Virus record (IMG/VR): IMGVR_UViG_3300021960_009982
Span: 1-23,324 of that record
DNA: 23,324 nucleotides
Source of the DNA: a virus
Strand: one strand, 5' to 3'
Under the pieces are notes generated by a model. That model saw only the letters and a list, made by a program, of their open reading frames with translations, was not told the origin of the DNA and ran no database searches. The number at the start of each line of letters is the position of its first letter. The stretch's first letter is position 1. Shown one piece after another: positions 1,374 through 23,324 of this stretch. Made by a program: the position numbers and the translations under genes.

Positions 1374-2645
1374 ATGGAACTAATCTTTGCCATTGTACTT
1401 GGTGTAATTGTAGGAATTGGAGCCGGTTTGCTACCGGCCCTTCCTGTGTTTACGGGACCTATGCTTCTTTACTATTTTGTAAATGAGCAGTATTCTCTAC
1501 TTGCAATTCTCATCTTCTGGATGACGTCATATTGTGGTACTCAGTACTATGGATCTATTGCCACTATCACAACTGGTATACCTGGTGAAGAATCATCAGC
1601 AATCTACTTAAAAGATATCAGTGCTCTGACTCTGAATCAGAAACGAACTCTACTCTATGACACTGCACTTGGCAGTGCAATTGCTTCTATTGCAGCTCTC
1701 GTTCTCTTATGGGCTGCGATTCGATTTGGATCTGTTTCGATCTTTCCTTTCTTGCTTTCCCTTGAAGTTCAACTTACAGTTTTTGGCCTTGCTTTCTTTT
1801 CATTTCTGTTTATGAATAATGAACGACGATGGGTTATTCTCTTATGCATGATCTTTGGTCTATTACTCGGTCCAAGACAGAACTATTCATTACCTGATTA
1901 TTGGTATGACATAACCACACTTATGAATGGGTATACACTGTACATGGTTGTCCTTGGAACGGTGCTTATTCCATCGATCTTCTCAGAGTACTCAAACGTC
2001 ATATCACGCGACGTGCACGGAAAACCAGTGAAGGGTATAATCTCTCCATTCGTGTATCTGAGGGGAACACTGATCGGTTGTCTTGCTGGGCTTATACCTG
2101 GACCATCCGCTTCGATTGCTACTATGTATGCGTATCGATTTGAAAGGAATGTCTATAACAAAGTTACGTCAGCAGAAACAGCAAACAATGCTGCTGTCAT
2201 TACATGTATCATACCATTCTTTTTGCTTGGTCTACCAATCAATCAAAATACTCTGATCATGTCAAATATCATGGATCTCTATAGTATAAATATCATTGAC
2301 GAAATAGTAACGCATATCGATACTCTTGCGGTGATAATGCTTGGAGTTGTTTCGTTTTATTTCGTAATGAGTACACGTCTTATCGATGTGTATGCGCAAG
2401 CTGTAAGACTATTGCATGGTCAAATGAAATGGATCGTTCTAATCCTTCTATTGACTCTTATAGGAATGGATCTGTACTATACAGAAATTACGTATCTGAG
2501 ATATGGTATTCTGTTATCGTTCTTTACTCTTGTTGGTTTCATTCTTCAAAGATTGAACGTATCTCCAATTCCTTTTCTATTCTCAATAATCTTAGCAGAT
2601 AAAATCATCTGGCTGACAAGCCAAGCAATAAGGATATACTTATGA
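1374..2645 (+). CDS. tctA: TctA-family (tripartite tricarboxylate transporter) large permease subunit
   Basis: Protein of 423 residues with about ten to twelve hydrophobic segments. It carries both signatures of TctA permeases: the first repeat YGSIATITTGIPGEESS (residues 59-75, family pattern YGGSxTxILxxxPGE) and the second repeat GLIPGPSASIA (239-249) followed by SAETANNAA (266-274, family pattern PEAANNA) and FFLLGLPIN. TctA is the membrane channel of tripartite carboxylate uptake systems. Cellular TctA proteins are usually near 500 residues; this one is shorter, notably between the PGPSASIA and ETANNAA motifs, where the family's FGxGxxxG stretch is missing. There is no clear Shine-Dalgarno before ATG 1374. 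It overlaps by ATGA a TctC-like gene; no separate TctB gene is visible. Probably a host-derived auxiliary metabolic gene; substrate unknown. Confidence 0.88.
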   Translation: MELIFAIVLGVIVGIGAGLLPALPVFTGPMLLYYFVNEQYSLLAILIFWMTSYCGTQYYGSIATITTGIPGEESSAIYLKDISALTLNQKRTLLYDTALGSAIASIAALVLLWAAIRFGSVSIFPFLLSLEVQLTVFGLAFFSFLFMNNERRWVILLCMIFGLLLGPRQNYSLPDYWYDITTLMNGYTLYMVVLGTVLIPSIFSEYSNVISRDVHGKPVKGIISPFVYLRGTLIGCLAGLIPGPSASIATMYAYRFERNVYNKVTSAETANNAAVITCIIPFFLLGLPINQNTLIMSNIMDLYSINIIDEIVTHIDTLAVIMLGVVSFYFVMSTRLIDVYAQAVRLLHGQMKWIVLILLLTLIGMDLYYTEITYLRYGILLSFFTLVGFILQRLNVSPIPFLFSIILADKIIWLTSQAIRIYL

Positions 2646-3508
2646 TCGATAAACATATGAAAGTTGGACTATGCGTGGTTGGAATCGTATTGATCCTTGT
2701 TGGTGCATTAGTCTATGCATCTAATCAACCAAGAGATCCAGAAACATTTAAAGACTATGTGGTGATTAACCAATCGTCAAAAGCTTCTCCTGCTGGCGTG
2801 TTTGCAAATGCAGTTAAAAGAAGCTTAAACGCGGGTTGGTATCAATCTTCTGATTGTACTGATGCGGCTCGTAAATTTAAGGAAACACCAAATGCTCTTA
2901 TGGTTTGGAATTCTTCTGTTGCCTTTGCTGCAGCAAACAAAGGACTTGAAGGATGCCAACTCTCTGACTTTGGATCTGTTAAACCTGTAATGGTCTCAAA
3001 GACATATATGTCTATTTGTCATTTGCCAAATAAAGAAGTACCATTCAAGCAAGGTGCAACTCTTGGCATGGCATCAATGTATGCTGTTCCAAAGCATGAA
3101 GCTCAATGGGGTGGAACCGTAAAGCTTATTCCATACTCTGGTTCAAAGACTGTTCTTCAGTCTCTAAGAGCTGGCAATATTGACTGGGGATGGATGGGAC
3201 AAGGTTTAGCGTTAAAGAATTCAGAGTTTATTATGTGTCCATACACCACGAATCCAGTAGGTTCCGAAGATCAGAGATGGATTGGTCATGAAGTGCCTGG
3301 ACTTACAATTGGAAACTTTACCATTAACATCGTAGTTATGAGTAACAACATGTTGGATACACATAAACTCAGAAACAATCTTTATAGAGATAAAGAGTTT
3401 GTGAAATATATTGAGACTTCTGCTATGTGGCCTAATTGGAATCCATTGCCTAGTAATATCGATAAGATTCAGTCGTATGTAAAAACTATGGTAAAGACAT
3501 GGAAATAA
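2642..3508 (+). CDS. Membrane-anchored TctC-like solute-binding protein
   Basis: Protein of 288 residues. Residues 7-27 form one strong hydrophobic segment (VGLCVVGIVLILVGALVYAS), acting as uncleaved anchor or signal peptide, so the remainder should lie in the periplasm. The stretch around residues 160-190 (KLIPYSGSKTVLQSLRAGNIDWGW) resembles the TctC/Bug pattern VPYKGxxxALxxLLxGxVD, and SSKASPAGVFANAVKRSL resembles its N-terminal ligand-loop region. Overall similarity is weak, so the assignment rests largely on position: it overlaps the tctA stop by ATGA. TctC proteins bind carboxylates and deliver them to TctA/TctB. Four Cys in the exported part could form disulphides. Start ATG 2642 follows an AAGGA site; ATG 2657 is an alternative. 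Confidence 0.6.
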   Translation: MIDKHMKVGLCVVGIVLILVGALVYASNQPRDPETFKDYVVINQSSKASPAGVFANAVKRSLNAGWYQSSDCTDAARKFKETPNALMVWNSSVAFAAANKGLEGCQLSDFGSVKPVMVSKTYMSICHLPNKEVPFKQGATLGMASMYAVPKHEAQWGGTVKLIPYSGSKTVLQSLRAGNIDWGWMGQGLALKNSEFIMCPYTTNPVGSEDQRWIGHEVPGLTIGNFTINIVVMSNNMLDTHKLRNNLYRDKEFVKYIETSAMWPNWNPLPSNIDKIQSYVKTMVKTWK

Positions 3509-8707: not shown

Positions 8708-9580
8708 ATGATACTAGTTGATCTTAATCAGGTTATGATTAGCAACCTTATGGTTACTATCAATAGCCGTTATTTCGATGGCGATCTTAATGAAGATCTT
8801 ATTCGCCATCAAGTTCTTAATACAATCCGTTTCTACAGGACTAAGTTTTCTGATAAGTATGGAGAACTAGTTATCTGTTGTGACGATCGTCATTATTGGC
8901 GCAGGGATGTATTTCCTTACTATAAAGCTGGTCGTAGAAAAGACAGAGAAGCTTCTGATCTAGATTGGCATATGATCTTTGAAGTCCTTAAATCTATTAA
9001 GGATGAAATCAAAGACATATTTCCTTATAAGGTTATCCAGGTACATGGTGCTGAAGCTGATGATGTGATTGGTACCTTATGTCATCAGTATGGACATCTA
9101 GGTATCAATGGTAATAACCCAGAACCAATTCTGGTACTCTCATCTGATAAAGACTTCGTACAACTACAGAAGTATGCAAATGTAGATCAATATAGTCCAA
9201 TTCAAAAGAAGTTCGTAAGGTGCAGTAATCCTGCTAGATATATCCATGAGCATATTATCAAAGGTGATCGTGGAGATGGTGTACCTAACTTCTTATCTGA
9301 TGATGATACCTTTGTTGCCAGTAAAAGACAAAAACCGATCTCATCAAAAAAGATCGATAATTGGAATGGTATGAATCCATCTGAGTTTTGCGATGAACGT
9401 ATGCTTAGGAACTACAAGCGCAATCAACAGCTTGTTGACTTGGATTTTATTCCAAAGGAACTACAACAAAATATTCTAGATGAATATGAAAACTATGATG
9501 TGAATGACAGAAGCAAACTGTTTAATTATTTCATTGCAAAGAAGTTACGTAATTTAATGGATTCAATACAGGAGTTCTAA
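8708..9580 (+). CDS. rnh: T4 RNase H-type 5'-3' flap exonuclease
   Basis: Protein of 290 residues, close to T4 RNase H (305). It carries the acidic metal-binding set of the FEN-1/5'-nuclease family: Asp5 (ILVDLNQ), Asp59-Asp60 (CCDDR) followed by YKAGR (72-76), Glu116/Asp118/Asp119 (AEADDVIG), Asp147/Asp149 (SSDKDF) and the helix-hairpin start GDRGDGVPN (186-194). In T4 this enzyme removes RNA primers and flaps from Okazaki fragments and is one of the phage replication proteins. First gene behind promoter P3, with AGTGAAG as ribosome-binding site. All key acids appear intact, so it is likely active. Confidence 0.92.
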   Translation: MILVDLNQVMISNLMVTINSRYFDGDLNEDLIRHQVLNTIRFYRTKFSDKYGELVICCDDRHYWRRDVFPYYKAGRRKDREASDLDWHMIFEVLKSIKDEIKDIFPYKVIQVHGAEADDVIGTLCHQYGHLGINGNNPEPILVLSSDKDFVQLQKYANVDQYSPIQKKFVRCSNPARYIHEHIIKGDRGDGVPNFLSDDDTFVASKRQKPISSKKIDNWNGMNPSEFCDERMLRNYKRNQQLVDLDFIPKELQQNILDEYENYDVNDRSKLFNYFIAKKLRNLMDSIQEF

Positions 9581-12112: not shown

Positions 12113-12886
12113 ATGTCGAGAGGTTATAGCGCCGAACAATTTTTTGAAGAAGAACACTTAGATTATAACCTACCTCACAATATTTTCAAAGACAGAGTTA
12201 AAGGAAAAAAGAAGCAGAAACCAAATCTATCGCTCAAGATTAAAGATATAGAACCAAGAACTAATACTCAACAACTAGTTTTTGACTCCTATTATTCTGG
12301 TCAAAACATGCTGCTTCATGGAATGGCAGGTACTGGCAAAACCTTCGTATCCACTTATCTTGCTCTTAATGATATTCTCTCCAAACAAACCGATAAAGAA
12401 AAGCTAGTCATTCTTAGATCGGTAGTACCAACTAGGGACATGGGATTCCTCCCCGGAAATCAAGCAGAAAAACAAAAGGTTTATGAAGCTCCATATAGCG
12501 CTATATGTTCAGAGCTTTTTGGTAGAGGAGACGCTTACCAGATCTTGAAGTCAAGAGATCTGATAGAGTTTACCTCTACTTCTTTTATCAGGGGCATAAC
12601 AATTAACAATGCAATTGTCATAGTTGATGAATGCCAAAACATGACATTCCATGAATTGGATTCAGTCATTACTAGGATGGGAGAAAATGTTCAGCTCATT
12701 TTCTCTGGAGACTTTAGACAAAGCGACTTTAAGTGGAAAGACGAAAGAGATGGAATTCTTAATTTCATCAAGATCATAAACAATATGGACTTCTTTGATT
12801 CAATAGAGTTCTATGCTAACGATATCGTAAGAAGCCCAATGGTCAAACAATATATAATTGAAAGAGCCAATCACGGACTAATGTAA
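12113..12886 (+). CDS. phoH: PhoH-like P-loop ATPase
   Basis: Protein of 257 residues. Walker A is GMAGTGKT (70-77), the second conserved block RSVVPTRDMGFLPG (102-115) and Walker B IVDECQNMT (170-178), followed by SGDFRQ (198-203); together these define the PhoH/superfamily 1-like ATPase. PhoH genes are widespread in marine and other myoviruses. The role is unsettled: RNA-related ATPase or helicase and a phosphate-stress link have been proposed. About 48 residues precede the NTQQ segment, with a basic patch KGKKKQKP. Start ATG 12113 has AAGGAAA upstream. Confidence 0.92.
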   Translation: MSRGYSAEQFFEEEHLDYNLPHNIFKDRVKGKKKQKPNLSLKIKDIEPRTNTQQLVFDSYYSGQNMLLHGMAGTGKTFVSTYLALNDILSKQTDKEKLVILRSVVPTRDMGFLPGNQAEKQKVYEAPYSAICSELFGRGDAYQILKSRDLIEFTSTSFIRGITINNAIVIVDECQNMTFHELDSVITRMGENVQLIFSGDFRQSDFKWKDERDGILNFIKIINNMDFFDSIEFYANDIVRSPMVKQYIIERANHGLM

Positions 12887-12887
12887 C

Positions 12888-13571
12888 ATGAAATTTTATT
12901 ATGCTCCCCGCGGGGATTTCGATTTAGACTTTGCTAGAGATATTTGCACTCCTTGTAGGAATAATAATCCACCTTGGTATAAGGACATGGGTTTCTTCCT
13001 ACAAGGAGCTAAGTCTGTAAAAGATTATTGGTCTAAACTAAGTCAACCAAATAAGTTACAAGCTGAAGCATTCACAACAATTAAAGCATGCCCAGGCTTT
13101 AGAGATTTATTTGCAAACAGTTTTATTATCAAGTTTCCTTGTGACCTTCTCTTAGAGACCAAAGAGGATGGAGGTTTCACTTGGAAGATTCCAAGCTCTG
13201 ATGAAATTCTAAAAATTATGAATCACAATTCAGAGCAGATGGTCAGTCCAGTTACTGATAAATACTTAGTATTCAAGTTTGAATTACCTTACCTCATGGC
13301 TGGTAAAGGTAACACTCTTGTTTTCATGGATCCAATTTACTGGAAAGAACAACCATATAAGGTAGTACCTGGTGTGGTTAAACTCCATGATGTCAATAGA
13401 GGTTTAGGCTTTAGTGTGCTAATCTTTATTGAGAAAAAAGATTCGGTGTATCACTTCAAAAAGGGCGAACCAATGGCATTGTTGTATATGCCAGAAAAGA
13501 CTCAAATGGTTCAGAAAAAACTTAGGACTTTTGTCAAAAAAGAGTTCATTTTAGAATATGGAAAAAAATAA
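12888..13571 (+). CDS. Phage protein of unknown function (227 aa)
   Basis: Starts one base after the PhoH stop. The product has a Cys/His-poor fold with IKACPGFRDLFANSFIIKFPCDL (residues 65-87), then YLVFKFELPYLMAGKGN and VVPGVVKLHDVNRGLGFSVLIFIEK, ending in KKEFILEYGKK. The CPGF...NSFIIKFPCD stretch resembles a small family (possibly DUF6065-like) seen in some myoviruses and biosynthetic clusters; this is recall and untested. It reads like a double-stranded beta-helix or other all-beta fold. The stop overlaps the next start (TAATG). Function not assignable. Confidence 0.65.
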   Translation: MKFYYAPRGDFDLDFARDICTPCRNNNPPWYKDMGFFLQGAKSVKDYWSKLSQPNKLQAEAFTTIKACPGFRDLFANSFIIKFPCDLLLETKEDGGFTWKIPSSDEILKIMNHNSEQMVSPVTDKYLVFKFELPYLMAGKGNTLVFMDPIYWKEQPYKVVPGVVKLHDVNRGLGFSVLIFIEKKDSVYHFKKGEPMALLYMPEKTQMVQKKLRTFVKKEFILEYGKK

Positions 13572-14245
13572 TGTTCATGCATTTACAAGGCTATGACTCA
13601 ATTAAGCTTAACGTGATTGAAGGTGTTGATGGAGGTCCAAGACTTTATGAAACGCCGGATGGTTATCAATATCCATCTATCACTTCAGTACTTTCTATTC
13701 TAAGCGAAGATTCAATTCGCAAATGGAAGGAAAGAGTTGGAGAAGAAGAGGCAGCCAAGATTGGTCGTAAGGCTGCTACTCGTGGAACAAAGATTCATAA
13801 TATGTGCGAAGCATATATTAACAATGATAGATATGAGTCAACGGATATTACACCTCTTGATACTGAAATGTTTGGACAGCTTAAGTCAGTCTTAGATGCT
13901 TATGTTACAGATGTGTTTGCACAAGAAACTACTCTCTATTCTGATGAGTTACAAACAGCAGGAAGATGCGATTTAGTTGCTAAGTTCCTTGGCACTCCTG
14001 CAATTATTGATTTCAAGACAAGCTCAAAAGAAAAGAAAGAGCAATGGATTCAAAGTTATTTTCAACAGACAACTGCCTATTCTCTCATGTTTGAAGAGAT
14101 GTATAATCAAAAGATTGATAAAGTGGTAGTCATTATTGCAGTAGAAGAAACAGGTAAACCACAAGTGTTTGTTCGAAAGAAAGATAAATATATTGAAGCA
14201 TTGAAAAACACTAGACAATTATATAGAGATAAGTACAATAGATAA
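13571..14245 (+). CDS. RecB/Cas4-like PD-(D/E)XK nuclease
   Basis: Protein of 224 residues with the PDDEXK_1 pattern in order: RGTKIHNMCEAY (71-82, His76 and Glu80), AGRCDLVA (130-137, Asp134), IIDFKTSSKEK (145-155, Asp147 and Lys149), and QSYFQQTTAY (161-170, the Gln-Tyr motif after the catalytic core). This arrangement is typical of phage exonucleases related to RecB, Cas4 and mitochondrial MGME1, which degrade single-stranded ends or host DNA. No Cys set for a Fe-S cluster is visible, so it is not a true Cas4. TAATG overlaps join it to both neighbours. ATG 13577 is an alternative start. Confidence 0.88.
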   Translation: MFMHLQGYDSIKLNVIEGVDGGPRLYETPDGYQYPSITSVLSILSEDSIRKWKERVGEEEAAKIGRKAATRGTKIHNMCEAYINNDRYESTDITPLDTEMFGQLKSVLDAYVTDVFAQETTLYSDELQTAGRCDLVAKFLGTPAIIDFKTSSKEKKEQWIQSYFQQTTAYSLMFEEMYNQKIDKVVVIIAVEETGKPQVFVRKKDKYIEALKNTRQLYRDKYNR

Positions 14246-15264
14246 TGGCACTAAAGTATGTAATTCCACCAAGCTCAATCTATCGCGACGATTATCATCC
14301 ACTCATAGATTACTTTACTGGCAGATTTTTAGATAGATCTAAACAGGCAAAGCTTGGATTCCAGTATCACGTAAGAGATCCATTGCCAACTAGTATGCCA
14401 GCTAATCCTGGCGACTTTGATTTTTGTATGGATGAAAGAGCTAAACAAATTGAGTTAGCTCAAAAAGAAGCGGGTAAGCCTCTTGCTCTTTTATGGTCTG
14501 GTGGCTGGGATTCCACTTCAATTGCTGTTGCTCTAATGAAAGCCGGTTTGAAGTTTAAAGTTATCTATACTGAATCTTCAATGATGGAGAATCCTAATTT
14601 CTATAAGGATATCTTGTTAAATAATTCTTCCATAGAAATGGAACAAGTAAAGCATCCGCTAAGATGGCTTCATTTTGATGGACCAGACTATGTGATTGTC
14701 ACTGGCGAATGCGGTGCTCAAATGATGGGTACCATCTCATTCAGAAAAATCTTAGTAGGCATGAATAAGTCATTTCATAATATTAGTGAAGGTGTAGATG
14801 AATCCTTTACTGAGTTTATGTCAAACCCAGAGCCTTTATATAAGTGGCCAGATTATTATAAGAATCCAGTCAAACATGTTTTAGATTATTATCCTGGCAC
14901 GCTTAAAACTAATTATGATGCTATGTGGTGGGTTACCTTTGTCTTTAAGTGGCAGGTAGTTCAGTATAGAATGGAACTATTTTCTGGTAAGATCCAGCCA
15001 GATATGCATCATTACTTTTTATGTCCATTGTTTGAAGCATGGTCTATGAATAATGATGCTACAGTTAAATGCCCAGAATATAAATGGGAAAACTATAAGC
15101 TTCCAATGAAAGATTATATATTTAAGTTTCAAGGAAACGAAGATGTTTATGAACTTCAAAAATATGCTTCAATGCAGTTGGCTCAACCGGAAATTCGATA
15201 CGGAGTATATCAAAACAGATATATTTACTTGGATGAAAATAATCAATTTCAGTTAGGACATTAG
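14245..15264 (+). CDS. Asparagine-synthetase-like PP-loop protein, paralogue 1
   Basis: Protein of 339 residues, first of four related proteins. The ATP pyrophosphatase loop is intact: LLWSGGWDSTS (82-92). It is followed by YTESSMMENPNFY (108-120), a block shared with paralogues 2 and 3. The second conserved block, TGECGAQMMG (153-162), corresponds to the AsnB SGEGADELFGG motif, but the Asp is replaced by Ala. MWWVTFVFKWQVVQYR (227-242) and the C-terminal MKDYIFKFQGNED are common to the set. AsnB-type domains adenylate a carboxylate for amide formation; no glutaminase (Cys2) domain is present, so ammonia or another amine would be the nucleophile. The start forms TAATG with the nuclease gene. 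Confidence 0.82.
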   Translation: MALKYVIPPSSIYRDDYHPLIDYFTGRFLDRSKQAKLGFQYHVRDPLPTSMPANPGDFDFCMDERAKQIELAQKEAGKPLALLWSGGWDSTSIAVALMKAGLKFKVIYTESSMMENPNFYKDILLNNSSIEMEQVKHPLRWLHFDGPDYVIVTGECGAQMMGTISFRKILVGMNKSFHNISEGVDESFTEFMSNPEPLYKWPDYYKNPVKHVLDYYPGTLKTNYDAMWWVTFVFKWQVVQYRMELFSGKIQPDMHHYFLCPLFEAWSMNNDATVKCPEYKWENYKLPMKDYIFKFQGNEDVYELQKYASMQLAQPEIRYGVYQNRYIYLDENNQFQLGH

Positions 15265-15267
15265 TGT

Positions 15268-15807
15268 ATGACAACAGTAGTACCCAATTGCGTTTTTCTC
15301 TCTCATGGGACAATCCCATGTTCAGATCTCCAGCATACAATTAAATTTCTTACCGAGCTTTTTGGTTTTGAACATGTTCAAACAAGCGATAATTCAGCTT
15401 CGTTTAGAATGGGTGGAAACTTTTGTTTTAGCGCAATTGAGAATTATGATGAACCACAGGATCTAAATGCTGATAAAGTGAACCATCATTTTGGTATTGA
15501 TATGGCTAATGAAGAAGATATTCAAAAGGCCTATGATATATTGTCTCAACCAGAGATTCTAAAAGAATATAAGATTCAAAAAATTACAGCACCAACACAT
15601 GGTCATGGAACTTACTTCATTTATGTTGTAGACCAAGATAGTATATATTGGGAATTGCTGGTTAATCCACCTGAAGGTTATATGTATAGATTCTTAGACA
15701 AAGATACAAATACAGATAATCGTAAATGGAAGAATCAAGAAAATATGAGAATGGAAAAACAGAAGAAGTGGAAAGATGAAATACCTACTTCCAAGGGTGA
15801 CAACTAA
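15268..15807 (+). CDS. VOC-superfamily (glyoxalase/dioxygenase-fold) protein
   Basis: Protein of 179 residues starting three bases after paralogue 1. Two beta-alpha-beta-beta-beta modules are visible: module 1 FLSHGTIPCSDLQHTIKFLT then LFGFEHVQ and SASFRMGGNFCFSAIE; module 2 NHHFGIDMANEEDIQKAYDI then TYFIYVVDQDSIYWELLVNP. The candidate metal ligands are His in LSHGTI, the NHHFG pair and Glu in YWELL, the VOC arrangement. These proteins act as glyoxalases, extradiol dioxygenases, epimerases or resistance thiol-transferases. The substrate cannot be told. The C-terminal tail after about residue 140 is highly charged. The gene overlaps paralogue 2 by 32 bases, so it is part of the island. Confidence 0.8.
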   Translation: MTTVVPNCVFLSHGTIPCSDLQHTIKFLTELFGFEHVQTSDNSASFRMGGNFCFSAIENYDEPQDLNADKVNHHFGIDMANEEDIQKAYDILSQPEILKEYKIQKITAPTHGHGTYFIYVVDQDSIYWELLVNPPEGYMYRFLDKDTNTDNRKWKNQENMRMEKQKKWKDEIPTSKGDN

Positions 15808-16990
15808 ATTATGGTTTAAGGCTTTCAATTTACTTAAATCACAATTAGAAGAAGAACGGAAAGTAGAGCCATATCCGAAAAGGTATGGCTTTCTTCCTAT
15901 GATCTTCAAGCATCAACTAGAATATTTTGAAGAGAATATGAAGCCAGGATCTAATAAGTATCCTCATGGCTTCTGTGATGCTTATGGTGAAGTTACAACT
16001 GGACTTAGAATCTATAATCATCTACAAACACCAGAGCTTAAGGACTGGGAGATTACATACACCTTTGCCGAGTCTATGCACGACAGAGCACTTCAGCTTA
16101 AAACACTAAGTGATGAGACTCAGCAGAAACTAGTACTATTGTGGTCTGGTGGATTAGACTCATCTGGAGCTTTAATAGCTTTGAATAAAGTTTGTGATCC
16201 AGAGCAACTTAAGATCACTCTTACTGAATCATCAATTGAAGAGAATCCAAACGCGTATCGCAATATCATTGAGAATAGAATTGAGCATACAGTAAATAGA
16301 ACTAGAACTCTTACTGATGATATTCAATATGACAAAGATATAACCATTGCTTGTAATGAAGCAGATGGTTTGATGGGAAGTGTTGGATTGAATGGACCGC
16401 CTTGGCAAAAACCAGCTCCTTGGTGGTGGGATATGGTTAAAGAAGATGGTTGGCTATACAAGGAAGAAAATCGACTACTATTCAGGAAGATTCATTTTCA
16501 GTTTGTAAGATATAGACAACATTATAGTACTCTTAAGTTATTAGGAACAACAAAAGGAAATACAATACCTCTTCATCATATCCAGCCTTTTTACGGACTT
16601 GGCGAAAAGATTCAAAAGTACTTTATCTCTAAATCTTTTAATCTTGACTTAGATTACTATCTACCAGTAAATAACTATGAACTATATACTAAATCAAAAA
16701 TGCCATTGAGACATTATATACATGAAATGACTGGAGATAATTGGGCTTACACTAAAGAAAAGATTAACTCATTTGTCCTTGGTCAATTTGATAGTCAAAG
16801 CGCTCATCCAGATGAACGACTTACTCTTCAAAGAGAAGAAAGAGTATTAGGGTTGACAAAAGATGGACAGGTCATTTCACCAGACAATATTATAGAGTTT
16901 GATTTAGAACCATATATAGATTATGAGGGTATGAAACCCCATCAAGAAAAGCATGTTGCAGAATTCTTGAGTAACCGGAGTAAAACATAA
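15776..16990 (+). CDS. Asparagine-synthetase-like PP-loop protein, paralogue 2 (divergent)
   Basis: Protein of 404 residues. The PP-loop is intact, LLWSGGLDSSGAL (121-133), and LTESSIEENPNAY (149-161) matches paralogue 1. The second motif is degraded: ACNEADGLMG (192-201) where the family has SGEGADELFG. The C-terminal element KMPLRHYIHEMTGD is recognisable but altered, and an extra C-terminal stretch of about 60 residues (LTLQREERVLGLTKDGQ and on) exceeds paralogue 1. It probably still binds ATP; it may be a divergent enzyme or a partner subunit. It overlaps the VOC gene by 32 bases and meets the cupin gene in TAATG. Confidence 0.8.
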   Translation: MKYLLPRVTTKLWFKAFNLLKSQLEEERKVEPYPKRYGFLPMIFKHQLEYFEENMKPGSNKYPHGFCDAYGEVTTGLRIYNHLQTPELKDWEITYTFAESMHDRALQLKTLSDETQQKLVLLWSGGLDSSGALIALNKVCDPEQLKITLTESSIEENPNAYRNIIENRIEHTVNRTRTLTDDIQYDKDITIACNEADGLMGSVGLNGPPWQKPAPWWWDMVKEDGWLYKEENRLLFRKIHFQFVRYRQHYSTLKLLGTTKGNTIPLHHIQPFYGLGEKIQKYFISKSFNLDLDYYLPVNNYELYTKSKMPLRHYIHEMTGDNWAYTKEKINSFVLGQFDSQSAHPDERLTLQREERVLGLTKDGQVISPDNIIEFDLEPYIDYEGMKPHQEKHVAEFLSNRSKT

Positions 16991-17637
16991 TGCTTACGTT
17001 TAATGGAATAGGCGAGTTTGATCGATTCAATACTATGTACCCATCCAAAGTTGAAAGCATTAGCGATGGAATTAAAACAACAATCCCTTATAGTACGGTG
17101 TATGGCTATTGTGCAAAAGGAGAAATTGAGCTACCAAATCTTTGGATGGTAAAAGAAGGCGAGTATTTCTCTTACTCATCTGTTGAAGAAGAATCAATTT
17201 ATGTTTCTGATTATGGCAAAGCAATCTTCTTTACTAGGCTTGGTCATATGCATCAAAATAATCTAGGTGGTCCAATTGAATCATCAGGACGACTATGTTA
17301 TATTGATGGATGCAGCGATAGTCTTTTAATCTATCCAAGTAGAGCTGGAGATCCAAGCTTAAATCTTCTACATTTTCCAGAAAATATCAATCAAACTCTT
17401 CACATTCATCCAAGTGTTAGACTTGGATATATTGCAAAAGGATCCGGAATTTGTTGGACTACAGATAATATCTATAATCTTGAAGAGGGAATGATTTTTT
17501 GTATTGAAGAACGTGAACTCCATAGATTTACTACATCGAATTCTGAGATGACGGTTATTGCATATCATCCAGATGGAGACTGGGGTCCAACTGATCAAAA
17601 TCATACAATGCTTAATAGGACTTATACAATCAAATGA
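16990..17637 (+). CDS. Cupin-domain protein
   Basis: Protein of 215 residues. The C-terminal half has the cupin pattern: TLHIHPSVRLGYIAKGSGICW (residues 136-156; His138 and His140) and LEEGMIFCIEERELHRF (164-180; His178). The usual Glu after the HxH pair is not evident, so metal ligation may be incomplete. The N-terminal half also reads as alternating beta strands (GEIELPNLWMVKEGEYFSYS), so a bicupin is possible. Cupins include oxygenases, isomerases and binding proteins. It begins in TAATG with paralogue 2 and ends in ATGA with the next gene, hence co-translated with the island. The natural substrate is unknown. Confidence 0.75.
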   Translation: MLTFNGIGEFDRFNTMYPSKVESISDGIKTTIPYSTVYGYCAKGEIELPNLWMVKEGEYFSYSSVEEESIYVSDYGKAIFFTRLGHMHQNNLGGPIESSGRLCYIDGCSDSLLIYPSRAGDPSLNLLHFPENINQTLHIHPSVRLGYIAKGSGICWTTDNIYNLEEGMIFCIEERELHRFTTSNSEMTVIAYHPDGDWGPTDQNHTMLNRTYTIK

Positions 17638-18362
17638 GGAAATCTATCTCAGGCTCTGGAGTACCAGACGCACCAGGCGAACCAATCTTTCTAATTAAAG
17701 ATGATCGCAATGATGGAATTATCAGAACAACAATGTTACCTGAAGCAGCTCATGCTGTACTTTTAAGATATTCATACTTGTCACTTAGAACTACAATGCC
17801 ATATTTTCGTGGATCTATTTTTGGACAAGGAACTGAGTTGTCTCTAAATAATATGACTCAAGGCTGGATATGGAAAGATAAAGAGCCAAAAGGACATCCT
17901 ATAGTTCCTATGCCTCCAGATTTATTTAACTATGATTGGCAAAACTTTAGAACTAAAGTCTTTGAAGAAGTCTCTCAATACGAGCATTTGTTTCAAACAT
18001 TAACTATGGGATCTGAAATTTGGACTTCAACTACTTTAAGCATGATCAATAGATTTCCAGATGTTGTAGTTCGAGAATTAAATGCATGTGACCCAGATAA
18101 TAATCAATATTCTGAAAACTTTAAGATCTATGCGTCATATCAATCATGCGATATTAAAACAGCATATGATGAATTAGCAAGGGATATAGATTTTGACAAT
18201 AAAATAAAAATGAAAACACTTGGTATTTGGAATCAAATTGTAGAGAAATCTTTAGATTGTGAAAAAGAACAAGACTGGATAGATTTGAGAGTATATCTAA
18301 GGTTGATGTTATTTAATGGTGGAGGAACTAATTCTTCCACTAGGTGGAGTAACTTTCAATGA
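17634..18362 (+). CDS. Unknown protein within the PP-loop island (242 aa)
   Basis: Joined by ATGA overlaps to the cupin before and paralogue 3 after, so it belongs to the same unit. The N-terminus (MRKSISGSGVPDAPGEPIF) is Gly/Pro-rich; the middle contains AAHAVLLRYSYLSLRTTMPYFRG and a region rich in Trp and aromatics (GWIWKDKEPKGHP, FNYDWQNFR); the C-terminal third is helical and charged (DIKTAYDELARDIDFDNKIKMK). No signal peptide, membrane helix or catalytic motif was recognised. It could be a scaffold or carrier-like partner of the PP-loop proteins, but nothing in the sequence shows this. Confidence 0.7.
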   Translation: MRKSISGSGVPDAPGEPIFLIKDDRNDGIIRTTMLPEAAHAVLLRYSYLSLRTTMPYFRGSIFGQGTELSLNNMTQGWIWKDKEPKGHPIVPMPPDLFNYDWQNFRTKVFEEVSQYEHLFQTLTMGSEIWTSTTLSMINRFPDVVVRELNACDPDNNQYSENFKIYASYQSCDIKTAYDELARDIDFDNKIKMKTLGIWNQIVEKSLDCEKEQDWIDLRVYLRLMLFNGGGTNSSTRWSNFQ

Positions 18363-19474
18363 GTGAGCTCTTTCTTATAACGTCTGATTCTAAAATTTAT
18401 ACTGATGACCTGCATAATCCACCATCATTTGATGTTGCAGCTTATTTGAGTATTAACAAATTAGTTGGTAGATTAACTTGCCAAAACATTTGTGATAGAA
18501 CAGGATATGTTAATACACCATATAAGTTCAAACGGTTTATTCCAATACCCGCATTACCAAGTGAGACTAATGCTCTTTCATTTTCAGATTTATGCGATGA
18601 TAGAGCTCATGAACTTATAAAATATAGTAATGATATCGGTAAACCATTATTGGTTATGTGGAGTGGCGGAATTGATAGCACTACTCTTCTTACTGCTCTT
18701 ATTAAGACTAAAAGTCTTGATAATATTATAGTAGGAATGTCAGTCCATTCAATTAGAGAAAACCCGAACTTTTATTATAAACATATTCGTGGTAAGATTA
18801 AAACTATTCCTTCTAACATTGCTTTATCTAAAATTAAAAATGATATGATATTAGTAGCGGGTGAAGGTGCTGATCAACTATTTGGAACTGATATCTACAA
18901 AAAAATAAATGTGAACATTGGTCTTGGTGTTATGACTGAACCATACTCAAAAACCAATATTGTTAGCTTTCTTAGATCAGTTAATATGACTGATGCAGAA
19001 GCTGATAAATGGTTTTTCATATTGGATGACCAAATCAAACATACTCAACTATGTGAGATTAAAACATTCAAAGACTTTTGGTGGTGGTACAATTTTTGCT
19101 ATAAGTGGCAATTTGTATTTTTTAGAACTCTTATTATGGCAGATCAAATTGGGCGTGAATATATTACAAAGGATTGGATCAATACTAACTTCAAACAGTT
19201 CTTTATGACTAATGCATTTCAAAGATGGTCTATGCTAAATCCAAATCTTAAAAGAGTAGATACGTGGACCTCATATAAAATAGAAGCTAAGAAGTATATA
19301 TTTGAGTTTGATAAGAATCAAGACTATTTTGATAACAAAGTAAAAATGTCTAGTATGATCAACCTAATTAGAAGTACTCATTCTATGATTGGTGGTATGG
19401 ATTCGAATTATGAAATGCTTCCACCAAGTTTTGATTTAACGCCATATAGGCAGATGGAGAATTCATTTGTATAA
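18359..19474 (+). CDS. Asparagine-synthetase-like PP-loop protein, paralogue 3
   Basis: Protein of 371 residues. It has an intact PP-loop, MWSGGIDSTTLLTAL (100-114), and the best AsnB-like second motif of the set, AGEGADQLFGTDIY (167-180). HSIRENPNFYY corresponds to the TESSxxENPNxY block of paralogues 1 and 2. FWWWYNFCYKWQFVFFR and KYIFEFDKNQD near the C-terminus align with paralogues 1 and 4. Both catalytic signatures are kept, so ATP-dependent adenylation of a carboxylate is likely. The N-terminal 95 residues are not a glutaminase domain. The start overlaps the upstream stop (ATGA) and the end overlaps paralogue 4 by 8 bases. Confidence 0.85.
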   Translation: MSELFLITSDSKIYTDDLHNPPSFDVAAYLSINKLVGRLTCQNICDRTGYVNTPYKFKRFIPIPALPSETNALSFSDLCDDRAHELIKYSNDIGKPLLVMWSGGIDSTTLLTALIKTKSLDNIIVGMSVHSIRENPNFYYKHIRGKIKTIPSNIALSKIKNDMILVAGEGADQLFGTDIYKKINVNIGLGVMTEPYSKTNIVSFLRSVNMTDAEADKWFFILDDQIKHTQLCEIKTFKDFWWWYNFCYKWQFVFFRTLIMADQIGREYITKDWINTNFKQFFMTNAFQRWSMLNPNLKRVDTWTSYKIEAKKYIFEFDKNQDYFDNKVKMSSMINLIRSTHSMIGGMDSNYEMLPPSFDLTPYRQMENSFV

Positions 19475-20702
19475 AGATCCTTTTTTCGATGAAAGGATAG
19501 AGTTTTATCCAATGTCGCATATTAAGTCTACTGATTCCTTATTTAATTTTATTGAAGAGGATGAACTAGAAATCTATATGCCACAGGTTTTCATTGGTGC
19601 ATTTCTTTTATGTTTATCTCCGGTTAATAGAGTAAGACACAATAAGTTTAAGAACATCGAATTCAATTATATTCCAGTACCTGAATATAAGCCAAACACT
19701 CCTAACTTTGCAGACACAGTAAGAAGTGTTGCTGAAAATATGTGGAAGGACAATGAGAAGATTACTGTCTCTTGGTCTGGTGGAATTGATTCAACTACAG
19801 CTCTTTGTGCTCTTATTGAAACTTGTGATAATTGGAAAGATCGCCTTAGAGTAATCTATACTGACACCAGTGTTTTAGAATATTCAGAGTTTCATGAAAA
19901 GTTTGTAACACAAGTCAAAGATAATATTTTGTGCAGTGAACATGATTTATTTACTAAGCATATACCTAATGCTTTAAATGATAGTCTTGTAACAAGTGGA
20001 GAATGTGGAGATCAAATTTTTGGTAGTATGATTCTAGCTAGTAATCCAGAAAGTATGATTCAACCATATCAATCAATTTTGAATTGGGATCACCTATTAG
20101 GTCCAGATGCAAACTTACATAGATCATCTCCTGTAAATAATGTCGGTAAAGTCTATAAAGACTTAATGTTCAATTATATTGATGAGCAATTATCATATTG
20201 TCCATTTGAAGTAAAGAGTGTCTTTGATTTTTATTGGTGGCTTAACTATACACTTAAGTGGAATCTATGCGTGTATAGAGTGATTGGTAAAGTTCCAGTA
20301 GGAGATGAGTTTAAGATCAAAAATTGGTATCCATTCTATAATGCTCCTGAATTACACCAATGGTCTATTTCTCATCATGAAGAGAAAGTTAAAGTTGGTG
20401 GTAATTGGAAGACCTATAAGCAGCCGGCTAAAGACTATATTTTTACAATTGCTGGAGATGAAGATTATAGAGATAATAAAGTTAAGACCGCGTCTCTTTC
20501 AGAAGAGAGTAGAAAACTAAGTGGATCAATATCGTTCATAAATGAGTCTGGAAAAATTAGACCTTGGGTTGAACAAGAATATGTTGAGAAACTTATAGAC
20601 ATTAAACGCGTTCCATATGGTTCTGATGAAGTACCTCCATACTTCAATGAAGTATATACACGTATGAAACCCTTCTACGATTTCTTATATTTTTATAAAT
20701 AG
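19467..20702 (+). CDS. Asparagine-synthetase-like PP-loop protein, paralogue 4
   Basis: Protein of 411 residues from a TTG start at 19467, chosen because GGAGA lies six bases upstream and it overlaps the previous stop by 8 bases; ATG 19512 is an alternative without a good site. PP-loop VSWSGGIDSTTAL (101-113) and TSGECGDQIFG (176-186) are intact; the TESS block is changed to YTDTSVLEYSEFH. YWWLNYTLKWNLCVYR and YKQPAKDYIFTIAGDEDYRDNKVK match the other paralogues. It has a longer N-terminal part (about 100 residues) and a C-terminal extension of about 55 residues. Last gene of the island; its end (Tyr-Lys-stop) forms a TATAAATA late-type element. Confidence 0.85.
   Translation: MYKDPFFDERIEFYPMSHIKSTDSLFNFIEEDELEIYMPQVFIGAFLLCLSPVNRVRHNKFKNIEFNYIPVPEYKPNTPNFADTVRSVAENMWKDNEKITVSWSGGIDSTTALCALIETCDNWKDRLRVIYTDTSVLEYSEFHEKFVTQVKDNILCSEHDLFTKHIPNALNDSLVTSGECGDQIFGSMILASNPESMIQPYQSILNWDHLLGPDANLHRSSPVNNVGKVYKDLMFNYIDEQLSYCPFEVKSVFDFYWWLNYTLKWNLCVYRVIGKVPVGDEFKIKNWYPFYNAPELHQWSISHHEEKVKVGGNWKTYKQPAKDYIFTIAGDEDYRDNKVKTASLSEESRKLSGSISFINESGKIRPWVEQEYVEKLIDIKRVPYGSDEVPPYFNEVYTRMKPFYDFLYFYK
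20694..20701 (+). promoter_or_regulatory. T4-like late promoter element TATAAATA
   Basis: A perfect TATAAATA overlaps the Tyr-Lys-TAG end of paralogue 4. It lies in the only gap between the PP-loop island and the next gene, which has a very strong GGAGGG site, so a separate late transcript is plausible. Confidence 0.5.
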
Positions 20703-20743
20703 ATCAGATACATTATGTGTAGGTCTGATTAACGGAGGGCAAA

Positions 20744-21976
20744 ATGTCGTCATCAATTATTTTTTACACAAACGAATTTTTAGATAAGTTAGAAGAAACA
20801 GCAGCAGCTATCTCATCTAATACTGCAGGAATTGCTGCTGAAATTGCTAATCTTAAGACAAAGGCAGATGAATATCGTATGCATTCTGCTATCGATAGAA
20901 ATGGCTCTGAATATTTTGACTTTCAGGTGCGGACGCTTAAGCCATTAGGAGCTGAATCTCCACATACTGCTAGATCAATTGCTAATATTATGAACATTAG
21001 AGCAAGAGCACTAGCTGCAAAAAACAAGAATATTGCTGTTTTTATGAGCCGGCCAAGCCTTGATCAGTTTGCCGCACTGGCTTCTTTTATAAAAGCTTTA
21101 GATGATTATAGGACTTTAGATCCTATTGCTACTGGTGGTACTGGTTCTAGATTAAATAAGCTTACTGTATATCATCACCCAAGTATCTTTAATGTTTCAA
21201 CAGTTTCAAATACTAACTATGCTACATTTTTAAGTTGGTGGGCTGATGAACATAAAGCAACTGTACCAGATGGCTTTGTGAATACTGATATTATTGCAGG
21301 TATTTTCAAGAGACTTAAAAATAGAGTTAACTTCCAACCATTCCACTTTGGAAGAAGACTACCAAAGGGTGGTCTAGGTTCTAGACTTTCTATTCCAGAT
21401 GAAATGCTAGATGGTAATACTCTTATCATTGGACTAAAATGTCCTCTCCTTAAATATCAAGGAGACGCTAATGGCTGGCATGAGTGGATGAGATACGCTG
21501 AAATAGATATGCGTTTCACGCAAATTAGACATACAGCTAGAGATGTTGTTGTTGATCCACTTGAGAATATTGAAAACTTCTATTCAGTAGACATGGAAGA
21601 AAAGATTGTTGAGCTCTGTGGCGGTGGTGAGTATCCATATGATGCTATTGTCGAAGGTCTCAAAGAAGCAGTTGTATATGGACTAGAAAATACTAGAGTA
21701 GCAGATAGTGAGTCTTATATTTCAAATACACACATTGGAACTGATGGTCTAAAGAAAGATAAGTATCCTCATCGTATGGCTAACACCTATGTACAAAACT
21801 GGGAAGTTGGTGGAACCATTACATATAGTAGTGGGTTTAGCATGAACATGGATACTATGCTGACTCATAGCACTCCAGCAAATACTAACTTCTATGCTTT
21901 ATGCGCCAATGGTTCAGTTATTAGAGAATCTAATATTGCTGACTTTGATCTTCAAGAATTCATAATCAAGACATAA
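20744..21976 (+). CDS. Large phage protein of unknown function (410 aa)
   Basis: Start ATG 20744 with GGAGGG five bases upstream. The N-terminal 45 residues look like a coiled coil (LDKLEETAAAISSNTAGIAA then IANLKTKADEYR). The central part has HHPSIFNVSTVSNTNYATFLSW and FQPFHFGRRLPKGGLGSRLS; the C-terminal part, NTYVQNWEVGGTITYSSGFS then LTHSTPANTNFYAL, has the polar Gly/Ser/Thr-rich, Asn-rich texture of many virion proteins. Together with the late-type promoter upstream this makes a structural protein the best guess, but no family was recognised. Separated from the next genes by a terminator, which are on the other strand. Confidence 0.65.
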   Translation: MSSSIIFYTNEFLDKLEETAAAISSNTAGIAAEIANLKTKADEYRMHSAIDRNGSEYFDFQVRTLKPLGAESPHTARSIANIMNIRARALAAKNKNIAVFMSRPSLDQFAALASFIKALDDYRTLDPIATGGTGSRLNKLTVYHHPSIFNVSTVSNTNYATFLSWWADEHKATVPDGFVNTDIIAGIFKRLKNRVNFQPFHFGRRLPKGGLGSRLSIPDEMLDGNTLIIGLKCPLLKYQGDANGWHEWMRYAEIDMRFTQIRHTARDVVVDPLENIENFYSVDMEEKIVELCGGGEYPYDAIVEGLKEAVVYGLENTRVADSESYISNTHIGTDGLKKDKYPHRMANTYVQNWEVGGTITYSSGFSMNMDTMLTHSTPANTNFYALCANGSVIRESNIADFDLQEFIIKT

Positions 21977-21980
21977 AAAT

Positions 21981-22003
21981 GAGGGGCTAACCATTGGCCC
22001 CTC
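21981..22003 (-). terminator. Hairpin terminator at the convergent junction
   Basis: GAGGGGC (21981-21987) pairs with GCCCCTC (21997-22003); inner T-G, A-T, A-T pairs leave a loop CCA. On the minus strand it is followed by ATTTTTAT, so it should stop the leftward unit. On the plus strand no T-tract follows, but it may still slow the rightward transcript of the 410-residue gene. Confidence 0.75.
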
Positions 22004-22068
22004 GCGAGTCTATTAGGCGACTAACCCAAATGAAGTAGAGCAGCTAAATATAGTGGCTGTTACGGTAC

Positions 22069-22509
22069 TTATTTATATACTTTGAAATTAGTATTTGCTA
22101 GTTCTCTATTTTTGAGATGCTGTTCTGCAATAGATTCTTTAGATTGTCCAAAGTATGCTACTGCTAGATTATGGTCAACTAGTAATTTGTTGACCGTGGT
22201 GTTAATAGTTACACCTTCCCATTCATGGGATACTGGAAACTCTCCGAGGATGCGGCCGTATTTACCAGCCGCATCCTTTTTTGTTCGAAGAATCGCGCTT
22301 TCGCCTTCAACTAAATAAGCTTTTACGAAAGCGGCCGCCAACTTACCAAACACTTTTTCGACTTTATCACTGGTACGCGATTCTGGCGTATCAATACCAT
22401 AAAGCCTAATCCTTTGATCTCTAAGCCAGAGGTCAAAGCCTAAGTCAATGTCGACGTCAACTGTATCGCCATCAACAACTCGTTTGATAATGCAGCGGTA
22501 TTCATACAT
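22069..22509 (-). CDS. Staphylococcal nuclease-like (thermonuclease) protein
   Basis: Protein of 146 residues with the SNase OB-fold core: VVDGDTVDVDIDLG (11-24), RIRLYGIDTPESR (33-45) and GKYGRILGEF (82-91). Arg35, Asp40, Glu43 and Arg86 match the catalytic and calcium-binding residues of staphylococcal nuclease, so the enzyme is probably active on DNA or RNA in the presence of calcium. No signal peptide is visible, so it would act in the host cytoplasm, for example in host DNA breakdown, or be released at lysis. Similar genes occur in T4-like cyanophages. It starts 5 bases after the stop of the upstream 77-residue gene, in the same leftward unit. Confidence 0.9.
   Translation of the reverse strand: MYEYRCIIKRVVDGDTVDVDIDLGFDLWLRDQRIRLYGIDTPESRTSDKVEKVFGKLAAAFVKAYLVEGESAILRTKKDAAGKYGRILGEFPVSHEWEGVTINTTVNKLLVDHNLAVAYFGQSKESIAEQHLKNRELANTNFKVYK
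22070..22077 (-). promoter_or_regulatory. TATAAATA element at the end of the nuclease gene
   Basis: On the minus strand TATAAATA spans the Tyr-Lys-TAA end of the nuclease gene. No gene follows before the terminator some 70-90 bases on, so if active it would make only a short RNA. It may equally be a chance product of the Tyr-Lys-stop ending. Confidence 0.25.
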
Positions 22510-22514
22510 TTTTG

Positions 22515-22748
22515 TTATGATTTCTTCTGAATGTATTCGTAAAGCTCAGTTGCTTTTGAAACGATCTCAGATGGATTGTACATCTTAGGAGCGTACTCAG
22601 AAAGGAATTCTTGGACTGGTTTACCTTCTTCCCTAAGGATGTCGGCTGCCATATGCATCTGCTGGATCTGTGCATCATAGGCTTGATCCATCATTTCCTT
22701 AGCCATCTTGAGAGTTTCTAACCGAATTTCGAAAGGATTCTTAGACAT
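22515..22748 (-). CDS. Small T4-like phage protein of unknown function (77 aa)
   Basis: Starts at ATG 22748 behind AGGAGA on the minus strand. The product is almost entirely helical: NPFEIRLETLKMAKEMMDQA, then QQMHMAADILREEGK, then NPSEIVSKATELYEYIQKKS. The NPFEIRLE...A...LY(E/A)(Y/F) layout is one I recall among small T4-like phage proteins of unknown function. It sits between the tmRNA gene and the nuclease gene and shares their transcript direction. Confidence 0.75.
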   Translation of the reverse strand: MSKNPFEIRLETLKMAKEMMDQAYDAQIQQMHMAADILREEGKPVQEFLSEYAPKMYNPSEIVSKATELYEYIQKKS

Positions 22749-22830
22749 ATCATGTCTCCTGTGTTGTGTGTTTAGTTTATAAGGTGGTGGGTTATTCTGT
22801 TTCTAGGGAACCCACCGAAACCCAGAGCAA

Positions 22831-22875
22831 TTATGCTGCTAGAGCATAATCCTCAAGTGCAAAGTTATCGTTTGC
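22831..22875 (-). other. tmRNA tag reading frame (ANDNFALEDYALAA)
   Basis: Minus-strand codons from resume codon GCA at 22875 to TAA at 22833-22831 encode 14 residues, ANDNFALEDYALAA. The start AND and the end ALAA are the hallmarks of proteolysis tags (E. coli: ANDENYALAA), so the tag should be recognised by ClpXP-type proteases. The frame begins right after the AU-rich CGAATAAAT, as in other tmRNAs. Confidence 0.92.
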
Positions 22876-22962
22876 ATTTATTCGAGATCTTGCGTTAACC
22901 GAGCTTGCGCCGGACAACTCCACTCTTCTACTACCTGCCAGTCGATCCTAGTTCGCCCCCAT

Positions 22963-23030
22963 CATAAGCATGCTCTGTCGCCGTTTTTGCCATGCTGGTA
23001 ACGACCAAGACCTCAAAGAACATGCTTATG
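22963..23030 (-). repeat. Inverted repeat joining the two tmRNA halves in the precursor
   Basis: On the minus strand CATAAGCATG (23030-23021) is complementary to CATGCTTATG (22972-22963). It directly continues the 7-bp acceptor stem: one more A-U pair (23032 with 22961) and one C-A mismatch lie between, giving about 18 paired of 19 positions. The loop (23020-22973) is excised in maturation. Confidence 0.85.
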
Positions 23031-23093
23031 GTGGAGGCGGCGGGTACTGCCCCCGCGTCCTGTACAGCGTTTGAATTGCTTCAACGTTGCATA

Positions 23094-23279
23094 TTATTTA
23101 TAAGACTGTTGTTTAGTCCTATTTGGTTTTGATAGCCTCTGTGGCCTAGACTGCAAACCCTGAAATAAGCTAGGACGATTTTTCATCTTATGCTTAGGAT
23201 CAAGCAGTTCATAGCCCTTGATACCCCAGTCTGCTGCCCAAGCGGCAGTCATCTCAGGGCTGTGTTTACGTGAACTCAT
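23094..23279 (-). CDS. Small basic phage protein of unknown function (61 aa)
   Basis: Start ATG 23279 (MSSRKHSPEMTAAWAADWG) follows AAGGAGG on the minus strand. An in-frame ATG at 23315 lies upstream of the expected transcript start of the promoter at 23306-23311, so it is not used. The N-terminal half contains a probable helix (PEMTAAWAADWGIKGYELL); the C-terminal half is Lys/Arg/Gln-rich and probably unstructured. No family was recognised. First gene of the leftward unit, directly upstream of the tmRNA. Confidence 0.65.
   Translation of the reverse strand: MSSRKHSPEMTAAWAADWGIKGYELLDPKHKMKNRPSLFQGLQSRPQRLSKPNRTKQQSYK
23095..23102 (-). promoter_or_regulatory. T4-like late promoter element before the tmRNA gene
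   Basis: TATAAATA on the minus strand overlaps the Tyr-Lys-TAA end of the 61-residue gene. Initiation a few bases downstream would begin near GCAACG, close to the expected 5' end of the acceptor half, so the tmRNA may have its own late transcript. Confidence 0.45.
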
Positions 23280-23305
23280 ATAAGTCCTCCTTGTTAATTT
23301 ATATG

Positions 23306-23316
23306 ATTCTACCACA
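23306..23316 (-). promoter_or_regulatory. Extended -10 element of a minus-strand promoter (partial)
   Basis: The minus strand reads TGTGGTAGAAT, the same TGnTAGAAT extended -10 as in P1-P3. The -35 would lie about 17 bp further right, beyond the window edge. It would drive the 61-residue gene, the tmRNA, the 77-residue gene and the nuclease. Confidence 0.65.
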
Positions 23317-23324
23317 GTTCAAGG

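Follow-up and report, generated by a model that had tools for sequence, protein, structure and literature searches.

The closest described counterpart of the locus studied here is the ssrA gene of the T4-like phage Melnitz, in which Buchholz et al. (2022) reported a two-piece tmRNA; they counted 53 tmRNAs of the two-piece kind in phage genomes and found such a gene in 17 out of 47 Melnitz-like contigs (PMC9004378). In that work, the Melnitz gene was placed with those of alphaproteobacteria and their phages, its promoter was called early and the gene was called riboswitch-controlled (PMC9004378). Phage-encoded tmRNAs are also carried by mycobacteriophages and Bacillus phage G (one-piece) and by phage DS6A (tRNA-like-only). 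The one-piece and tRNA-like-only molecules are other gene forms and are not permuted. Permuted tmRNAs scoring 84-112 bits are present in the Rhodobacter phages RcSimone-Hastad and RcRudolph, the Mesorhizobium phage Cp1R7A-A1 and the Erythrobacter phages L02 and XM05, in whose records (L003, L004, L005, L006 and L007) they are unannotated.

We analysed a 23,324-nt stretch of DNA from a marine-type phage (IMGVR_UViG_3300021960_009982; hereafter, the window) carrying a tmRNA gene near one end. A previous sequence-only reading of the window named no permuted tmRNA on a T4-like phage; since one had already been described on Melnitz (PMC9004378), the kind of molecule is known, and what is new here is the late promoter box, the placement of gp33 and the genes in the spacers of relatives. 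Melnitz SsrA (Methylophilales phage EXVC043M/044M, Kyanoviridae) resembles that of the window in being a permuted alpha-type tmRNA of a T4-like marine phage, in belonging to the same wider tmRNA clade, in having a TATAAATA box before the tmRNA and in sharing PhoH and T4 RNase H genes. They differ in sequence (73% identity over 61% of the query), tag (ANDNYVPVDYALAA in Melnitz), spacer (142 nt with a small ORF in Melnitz, 68 nt without an ORF in the window), surroundings (gp33 and a glutamine riboswitch downstream and a sigma-70 -35 element in Melnitz; no -35 and no riboswitch in the window) and gene order, which is rearranged in the window. RcSimone-Hastad, Cp1R7A-A1 and XM05 have no TATAAATA box and share no Melnitz protein in the stretch examined. 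We consider it probable that the window encodes a resident, functional phage permuted tmRNA that is expressed late and rescues stalled ribosomes through host SmpB.

The circularly permuted two-piece tmRNA proposed at 22786-23090 on the minus strand is complete, with every element in place (Table 1). Rfam covariance models matched the minus strand and aligned end to end, with scores more than twice their gathering scores of 50 and 47, respectively: alpha_tmRNA (RF01849) at 23142..22786 (109.3 bits, E 2.3e-29) and tmRNA_permuted (RF04321) at 23090..22831 (107.6 bits, E 1.9e-20). ARAGORN reported no tmRNA in the window; a covariance model is therefore needed to detect the gene, and standard phage annotation would miss it. 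The acceptor half, with its CCA encoded at 23031-23029, lies 5' of the coding half both in the window sequence and in the Rfam alignments. The acceptor stem has seven base pairs (GGGGGCG/CGCCUCC), is followed by GGATCGAC and carries G-U as its third pair, which is the alanine identity pair. The tag frame (GCA AAC GAU AAC UUU GCA CUU GAG GAU UAU GCU CUA GCA GCA UAA) contains an alanine resume codon, a degradation signal ending in ALAA and a stop. The order of the two halves, the CCA, the 7-bp stem with its G-U pair and a tag ending in ALAA had been read correctly from the letters, as had the pseudoknot after the tag, whose score compares with a mean of 15.7 in shuffled viral sequences. The spacer hairpin has a minimum free energy of -42.1 kcal/mol (z -6.4). 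A 30-codon frame within it begins with an ATG that lacks a Shine-Dalgarno sequence and was not accepted as an ORF.

Table 1. Features of the tmRNA locus and other genes of the window.
Feature	Position	Strand	Basis or remark
T4 RNase H-type flap nuclease	8708..9580	+	PF09293 E 2.9e-16, phrog_107 E 1.6e-57
PhoH-like protein	12113..12886	+	phrog_170 E 1.9e-77; in Melnitz upstream of tmRNA
Staphylococcal-nuclease-like endonuclease	22069..22509	-	PF00565 E 1.3e-12, phrog_452 E 9.3e-31
77-aa protein, next gene downstream	22515..22748	-	Conserved neighbour
Coding piece, 175 nt	22786..22960	-	Rfam alignment
Pseudoknot after tag, GUUUC/GAAAC + GGUGGGUU/AACCCACC	22786..22821	-	Score 33
Tag reading frame ANDNFALEDYALAA + stop UAA	22831..22875	-	Rfam alignment
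Pseudoknot before tag, CCG/CGG + GCG/CGC	22892..22913	-	Sequence; weak family support
Spacer, 68 nt	22961..23028	-	Hairpin extending acceptor stem, CCA buried
Acceptor piece, about 62 nt, T arm + CCA	23029..23090	-	RF04321 and RF01849 alignments, 7-bp stem, T stem
Possible 61-aa ORF upstream of tmRNA	23094..23279	-	Mechanical ORF; uncertain
T4-type late promoter box TATAAATA	23095..23102	-	Perfect consensus

Helix conservation was assessed in 113 non-redundant viral relatives, using shuffled 3' letters as a control. The T stem was paired in 100% of cells, compared with 74% after shuffling, with compensatory changes at 4 of its 5 pairs; for the distal helix, the values were 93% and 58%, with compensatory changes at all 5 pairs. 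Family-wide support for the pre-tag pseudoknot is weak, with pairing in 62-69% of cells and in about 50% after shuffling. On the sequence alignment, the post-tag region, too divergent to show its pseudoknot well, had 59-60% of cells paired; when scored directly, this pseudoknot reached at least 25 in 80% of viral loci and in 10% of shuffles. An Rfam check identified 20 out of 20 related loci as permuted tmRNA. The compensatory changes in the helices, together with the conserved pseudoknot, indicate selection on the mature RNA. A decaying relic without present function is very improbable, given a complete structure, this covariation and, as described below, a mature RNA that is identical beside a replaced spacer. 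Only marginally better placed is the role suggested for the tRNA-like-only tmRNA of DS6A, in which a decoy RNA would titrate host SmpB and thereby prevent rescue in the host: tRNA-like-only tmRNAs do occur in phages and such a molecule inhibits tmRNA, but the window keeps the tag frame, resume codon, stop and pseudoknots, and 81 out of 107 phage tags end in ALAA.

A second contig, 3300021961_010455 (L127), matches window positions 12518-22968 at 99.9% and 23025-23324 at 100% identity. It carries an identical mature tmRNA and runs about 950 bases past the end of the window. Over a 925-base comparison, the mature RNA is identical and a single base differs in the remainder outside the spacer. The spacer itself has been exchanged: the 68 nt of the window correspond to an unrelated 39 nt in L127 (1249-1287). 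Each folds into a strong hairpin that prolongs the acceptor stem and leaves the CCA buried. An identical mature RNA next to a replaced spacer indicates that sequence constraint is confined to the mature pieces. In 86% of viral loci, the spacer adds 8 bp or more to the acceptor stem, compared with 8% when the spacer is shuffled; the corresponding values in bacteria were 51% in a first set and 26% in a second, smaller set. A spacer that is free in sequence while its shape is kept would be expected of a processing substrate. A megablast search of the whole window against phage records gave no match.

These data bear on whether the gene could be a recent host ssrA fragment or an assembly chimera, an idea suggested by the location of the tmRNA less than 250 bases from the contig end. 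A chimera with host DNA, the case against itself that the sequence-only reading had raised, does not hold, since L127 contains the same RNA, matches the surrounding 10.4-kb block at 99.9% and the 300 bases upstream at 100% identity, and continues beyond the window. Moreover, a neighbouring gene is kept in 28 viral loci, the viral tmRNAs form a separate clade, and the promoter differs from the bacterial one and has a shorter leader. Of all the explanations considered, this one appears the least probable.

The relationships of 224 tmRNAs (113 viral and 111 bacterial) were assessed using FastTree. Bacterial sequences had been selected with the same DNA pattern and for their resemblance to the window, and this sample is not exhaustive. 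All 113 viral tmRNAs fell on one side of a split with only 2 of the 111 bacterial sequences (support 0.91), and the tree required 3 host/virus changes, compared with about 75 in shuffles. The window belongs to a 15-member viral clade (support 0.97), within a wider viral clade of 88 members that also holds Melnitz. Its distance to the nearest phage tmRNA is 0.30 and to the nearest bacterial one 1.03. Acquisition of ssrA from the host, as previously inferred, is unsupported by what is essentially one viral clade, with the nearest bacterium about three times farther away than the nearest phage. Given this separate clade and a phage as nearest relative, the tree suggests that the window tmRNA is most likely a long-standing gene of a phage-only lineage, which would make the permuted tmRNA an old, stably kept phage gene and not an occasional host souvenir. 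Nor can the host class be read from the tmRNA, because OM43, the host of Melnitz in the wider clade, lies outside the alphaproteobacteria (PMC9004378). The suggestion that the phage might use its own tag fared better: no phage tag is identical to any sampled bacterial tag. An alphaproteobacterial-type tmRNA pattern was also seen in a metagenome-assembled genome labelled Spirochaetes (L284 612-631), possibly through misbinning.

The box before the window tmRNA recurs at a fixed distance in its relatives. TATAAATA lies 60-90 nt before the CCA in 142 out of 198 distinct viral loci, at 71-82 nt in all of these and at 74-81 nt in almost all; about 28% of viral loci lack a perfect box. It occurs in 12 of 5157 equally long upstream control windows (0.23%) and at none of 104 bacterial tmRNA loci. 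When 385 alphaproteobacterial genomes were searched for the TATAAATA pattern, 14 matches were obtained, and those listed in full do not resemble tmRNA. Alphaproteobacterial ssrA (RF01849) shares with the window the permuted layout, the acceptor stem, GGATCGAC and an ANDN-type tag. However, its -10 element, which in most cases resembles TATATT, is separated from the CCA by about 92 nt, with a 5' hairpin in between, whereas this distance is about 76 nt in the phages and the window has no hairpin.

T4 late boxes span positions -13 to -6 and have no -35 element (PMC2988020). The window box fits this arrangement: neither a -35 element nor a sigma-70 promoter was found at the locus, which has the late box only. 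A box at -13 to -6 predicts a start at about 23089-23090, the first base of the acceptor piece, so that 5' trimming would be unneeded. It would seem that a phage late promoter activates the tmRNA gene of the window. In 102 of the 142 loci, by contrast, TTGAC stands 18 nt before the box, at sigma-70 spacing, so that a sigma-70 and a late promoter are combined. RB49, S-PM2 and Syn9 are known to have early promoters that overlap late ones (PMC2984593). Because TATAAA also resembles a sigma-70 -10 element, the argument for late use consists solely of the extra conserved TA and of the loss of the -35 element in the window, and early transcription may also take place in most relatives.

Wherever gp33, the T4 late coactivator, was found (72 out of 72 loci), it lies downstream of the tmRNA on the same strand, mostly 75-1900 nt from the start of the coding piece. 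Among 25 related records, gp33 (phrog_254) was identified in 8, the late sigma factor gp55 in 16 and gp23 in 13. Neither gp55 nor gp33 is in the 23-kb window fragment, in which no structural genes were identified either; here, the 77-aa gene and then the nuclease follow the tmRNA in place of gp33. The 77-aa gene is downstream of the tmRNA and on the same strand in all 28 viral loci holding both (E <= 1e-4). It was considered as a candidate gp33 and rejected: only one of 17 aligned members matched phrog_254, a match taken to be the Melnitz row, and the two families align poorly. Both genes occur together in 17 relatives. The last codons of the possible 61-aa ORF overlap the TATAAATA box, and this ORF is present in only one other contig. 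The RNase H-type flap nuclease suggests a T4-like ancestry for the window, which also encodes PhoH and further homologues of Melnitz proteins. With a late box before the gene and, in many relatives, gp33 behind it, phage ribosome rescue would be tied to the T4-type late transcription programme, an architecture of which we found no description in the literature searched.

An alternative, put forward for Melnitz, is that the tmRNA acts early, tagging host proteins for degradation so that their amino acids are recycled. The Melnitz promoter, TTGACA-N17-TATAAATA, is a good sigma-70 promoter and was called early (PMC9004378). The window, however, lacks the -35 element, and most loci have the T4 late consensus as their -10 box. 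The targets of tmRNA are also stalled ribosomes and not chosen proteins, which counts against such a role. We regard early protein tagging as unlikely, although less so than the other alternatives.

No SmpB gene was found in 25 related records, nine of them longer than 100 kb plus the complete Melnitz genome, while the control search was positive in 10 out of 14 bacteria; tmRNA function would therefore need the host SmpB. In late ribosome rescue, the reading we favour, transcription would start from the phage late promoter TATAAATA, roughly where the acceptor piece begins. Enzymes of host tRNA processing would excise the hairpin of the spacer, so that an acceptor RNA of 62 nt and a coding RNA of 175 nt remain and pair with each other, and the host alanyl-tRNA synthetase would charge the molecule by recognizing the third acceptor pair G-U and the CCA. 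Delivery would fall to host SmpB, whose involvement and compatibility are assumed. Ribosomes stalled on broken mRNA would then be rescued, and a phage-specific tag ending in ALAA would mark the peptides for proteases of the host. If expressed late, the RNA would provide rescue capacity at a time when the phage has degraded host DNA and late mRNA is abundant; keeping translation running, as first suggested, is a plausible putative role. The time of synthesis and the role of phage tmRNA, questions dating from 2022, become directly testable in a cultured phage.

In many relatives, the spacer contains more than a hairpin. Nested frames, defined as frames led by a Shine-Dalgarno sequence and filling at least 55% of the spacer, were detected in 47 out of 110 distinct viral spacers of at least 100 nt, compared with 1-3% when shuffled, and in none of 9 bacterial spacers of at least 60 nt. 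With two further frames from shorter spacers, the total of 49 is grouped into 18 families, three of which have 12, 11 and 5 members. In the nine compared pairs where dN/dS was computable, it ranged from 0.06 to 0.42, suggesting that small protein genes under purifying selection are common in the spacers of relatives; the window spacer has none. In 11 of the 49 frames, the stop codon is located within the tmRNA coding piece. Several nested frames have homologues that stand alone near the tmRNA of other phages, among them the annotated gene just upstream of the Melnitz tmRNA; Melnitz also has a 54-aa nested frame that starts in its 142-nt spacer. Spacers with nested genes include those of L002 (10032-10174), L033, L035, L095, L131, L142, L145, L064, L098 and L519, among others.

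These frames raise the possibility, to which we give an even chance, that the locus combines a rescue RNA with an exchangeable spacer slot. In many relatives, Melnitz included, the slot would be occupied by the gene of a small protein, transcribed together with the tmRNA from a combined early/late promoter; if its stop codon falls in the coding piece, excision of the spacer would create a non-stop message to be rescued by the same tmRNA. The output of the nested protein would then be coupled to rescue capacity. The window and L127 have two different gene-less versions of this slot. If translated, the spacer genes would represent an unusual way of fitting a protein gene inside a stable-RNA gene. 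No mention of spacer-nested genes was found in the literature searched, which was largely open access.

A glutamine riboswitch begins at the tmRNA 3' end, or no more than a few bases beyond it, and precedes gp33 in Melnitz (L002 10354-10402), L043 (778-828) and L046 (1019-1072). In this location, it cannot be the leader of the tmRNA, and, contrary to the wording of the original description, the Melnitz riboswitch more likely controls what follows, namely gp33. Control of the window tmRNA by such an element was considered and rejected: there is no riboswitch near the gene and nothing credible below the threshold.

The remainder of the window carries additional genes of note. Between 14245 and 20702, four same-strand genes with SGGxDS PP-loop (asparagine-synthase-like) motifs have a glyoxalase-family protein and a cupin encoded among them, possibly forming a biosynthetic cluster in a phage. 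At 1374-3508, a TctA-family transporter gene (PF01970, E 1.6e-36), an unusual phage cargo, is followed by a protein resembling a substrate-binding partner, and positions 83-832 encode a YdcK-type beta-solenoid repeat protein (PF18836).
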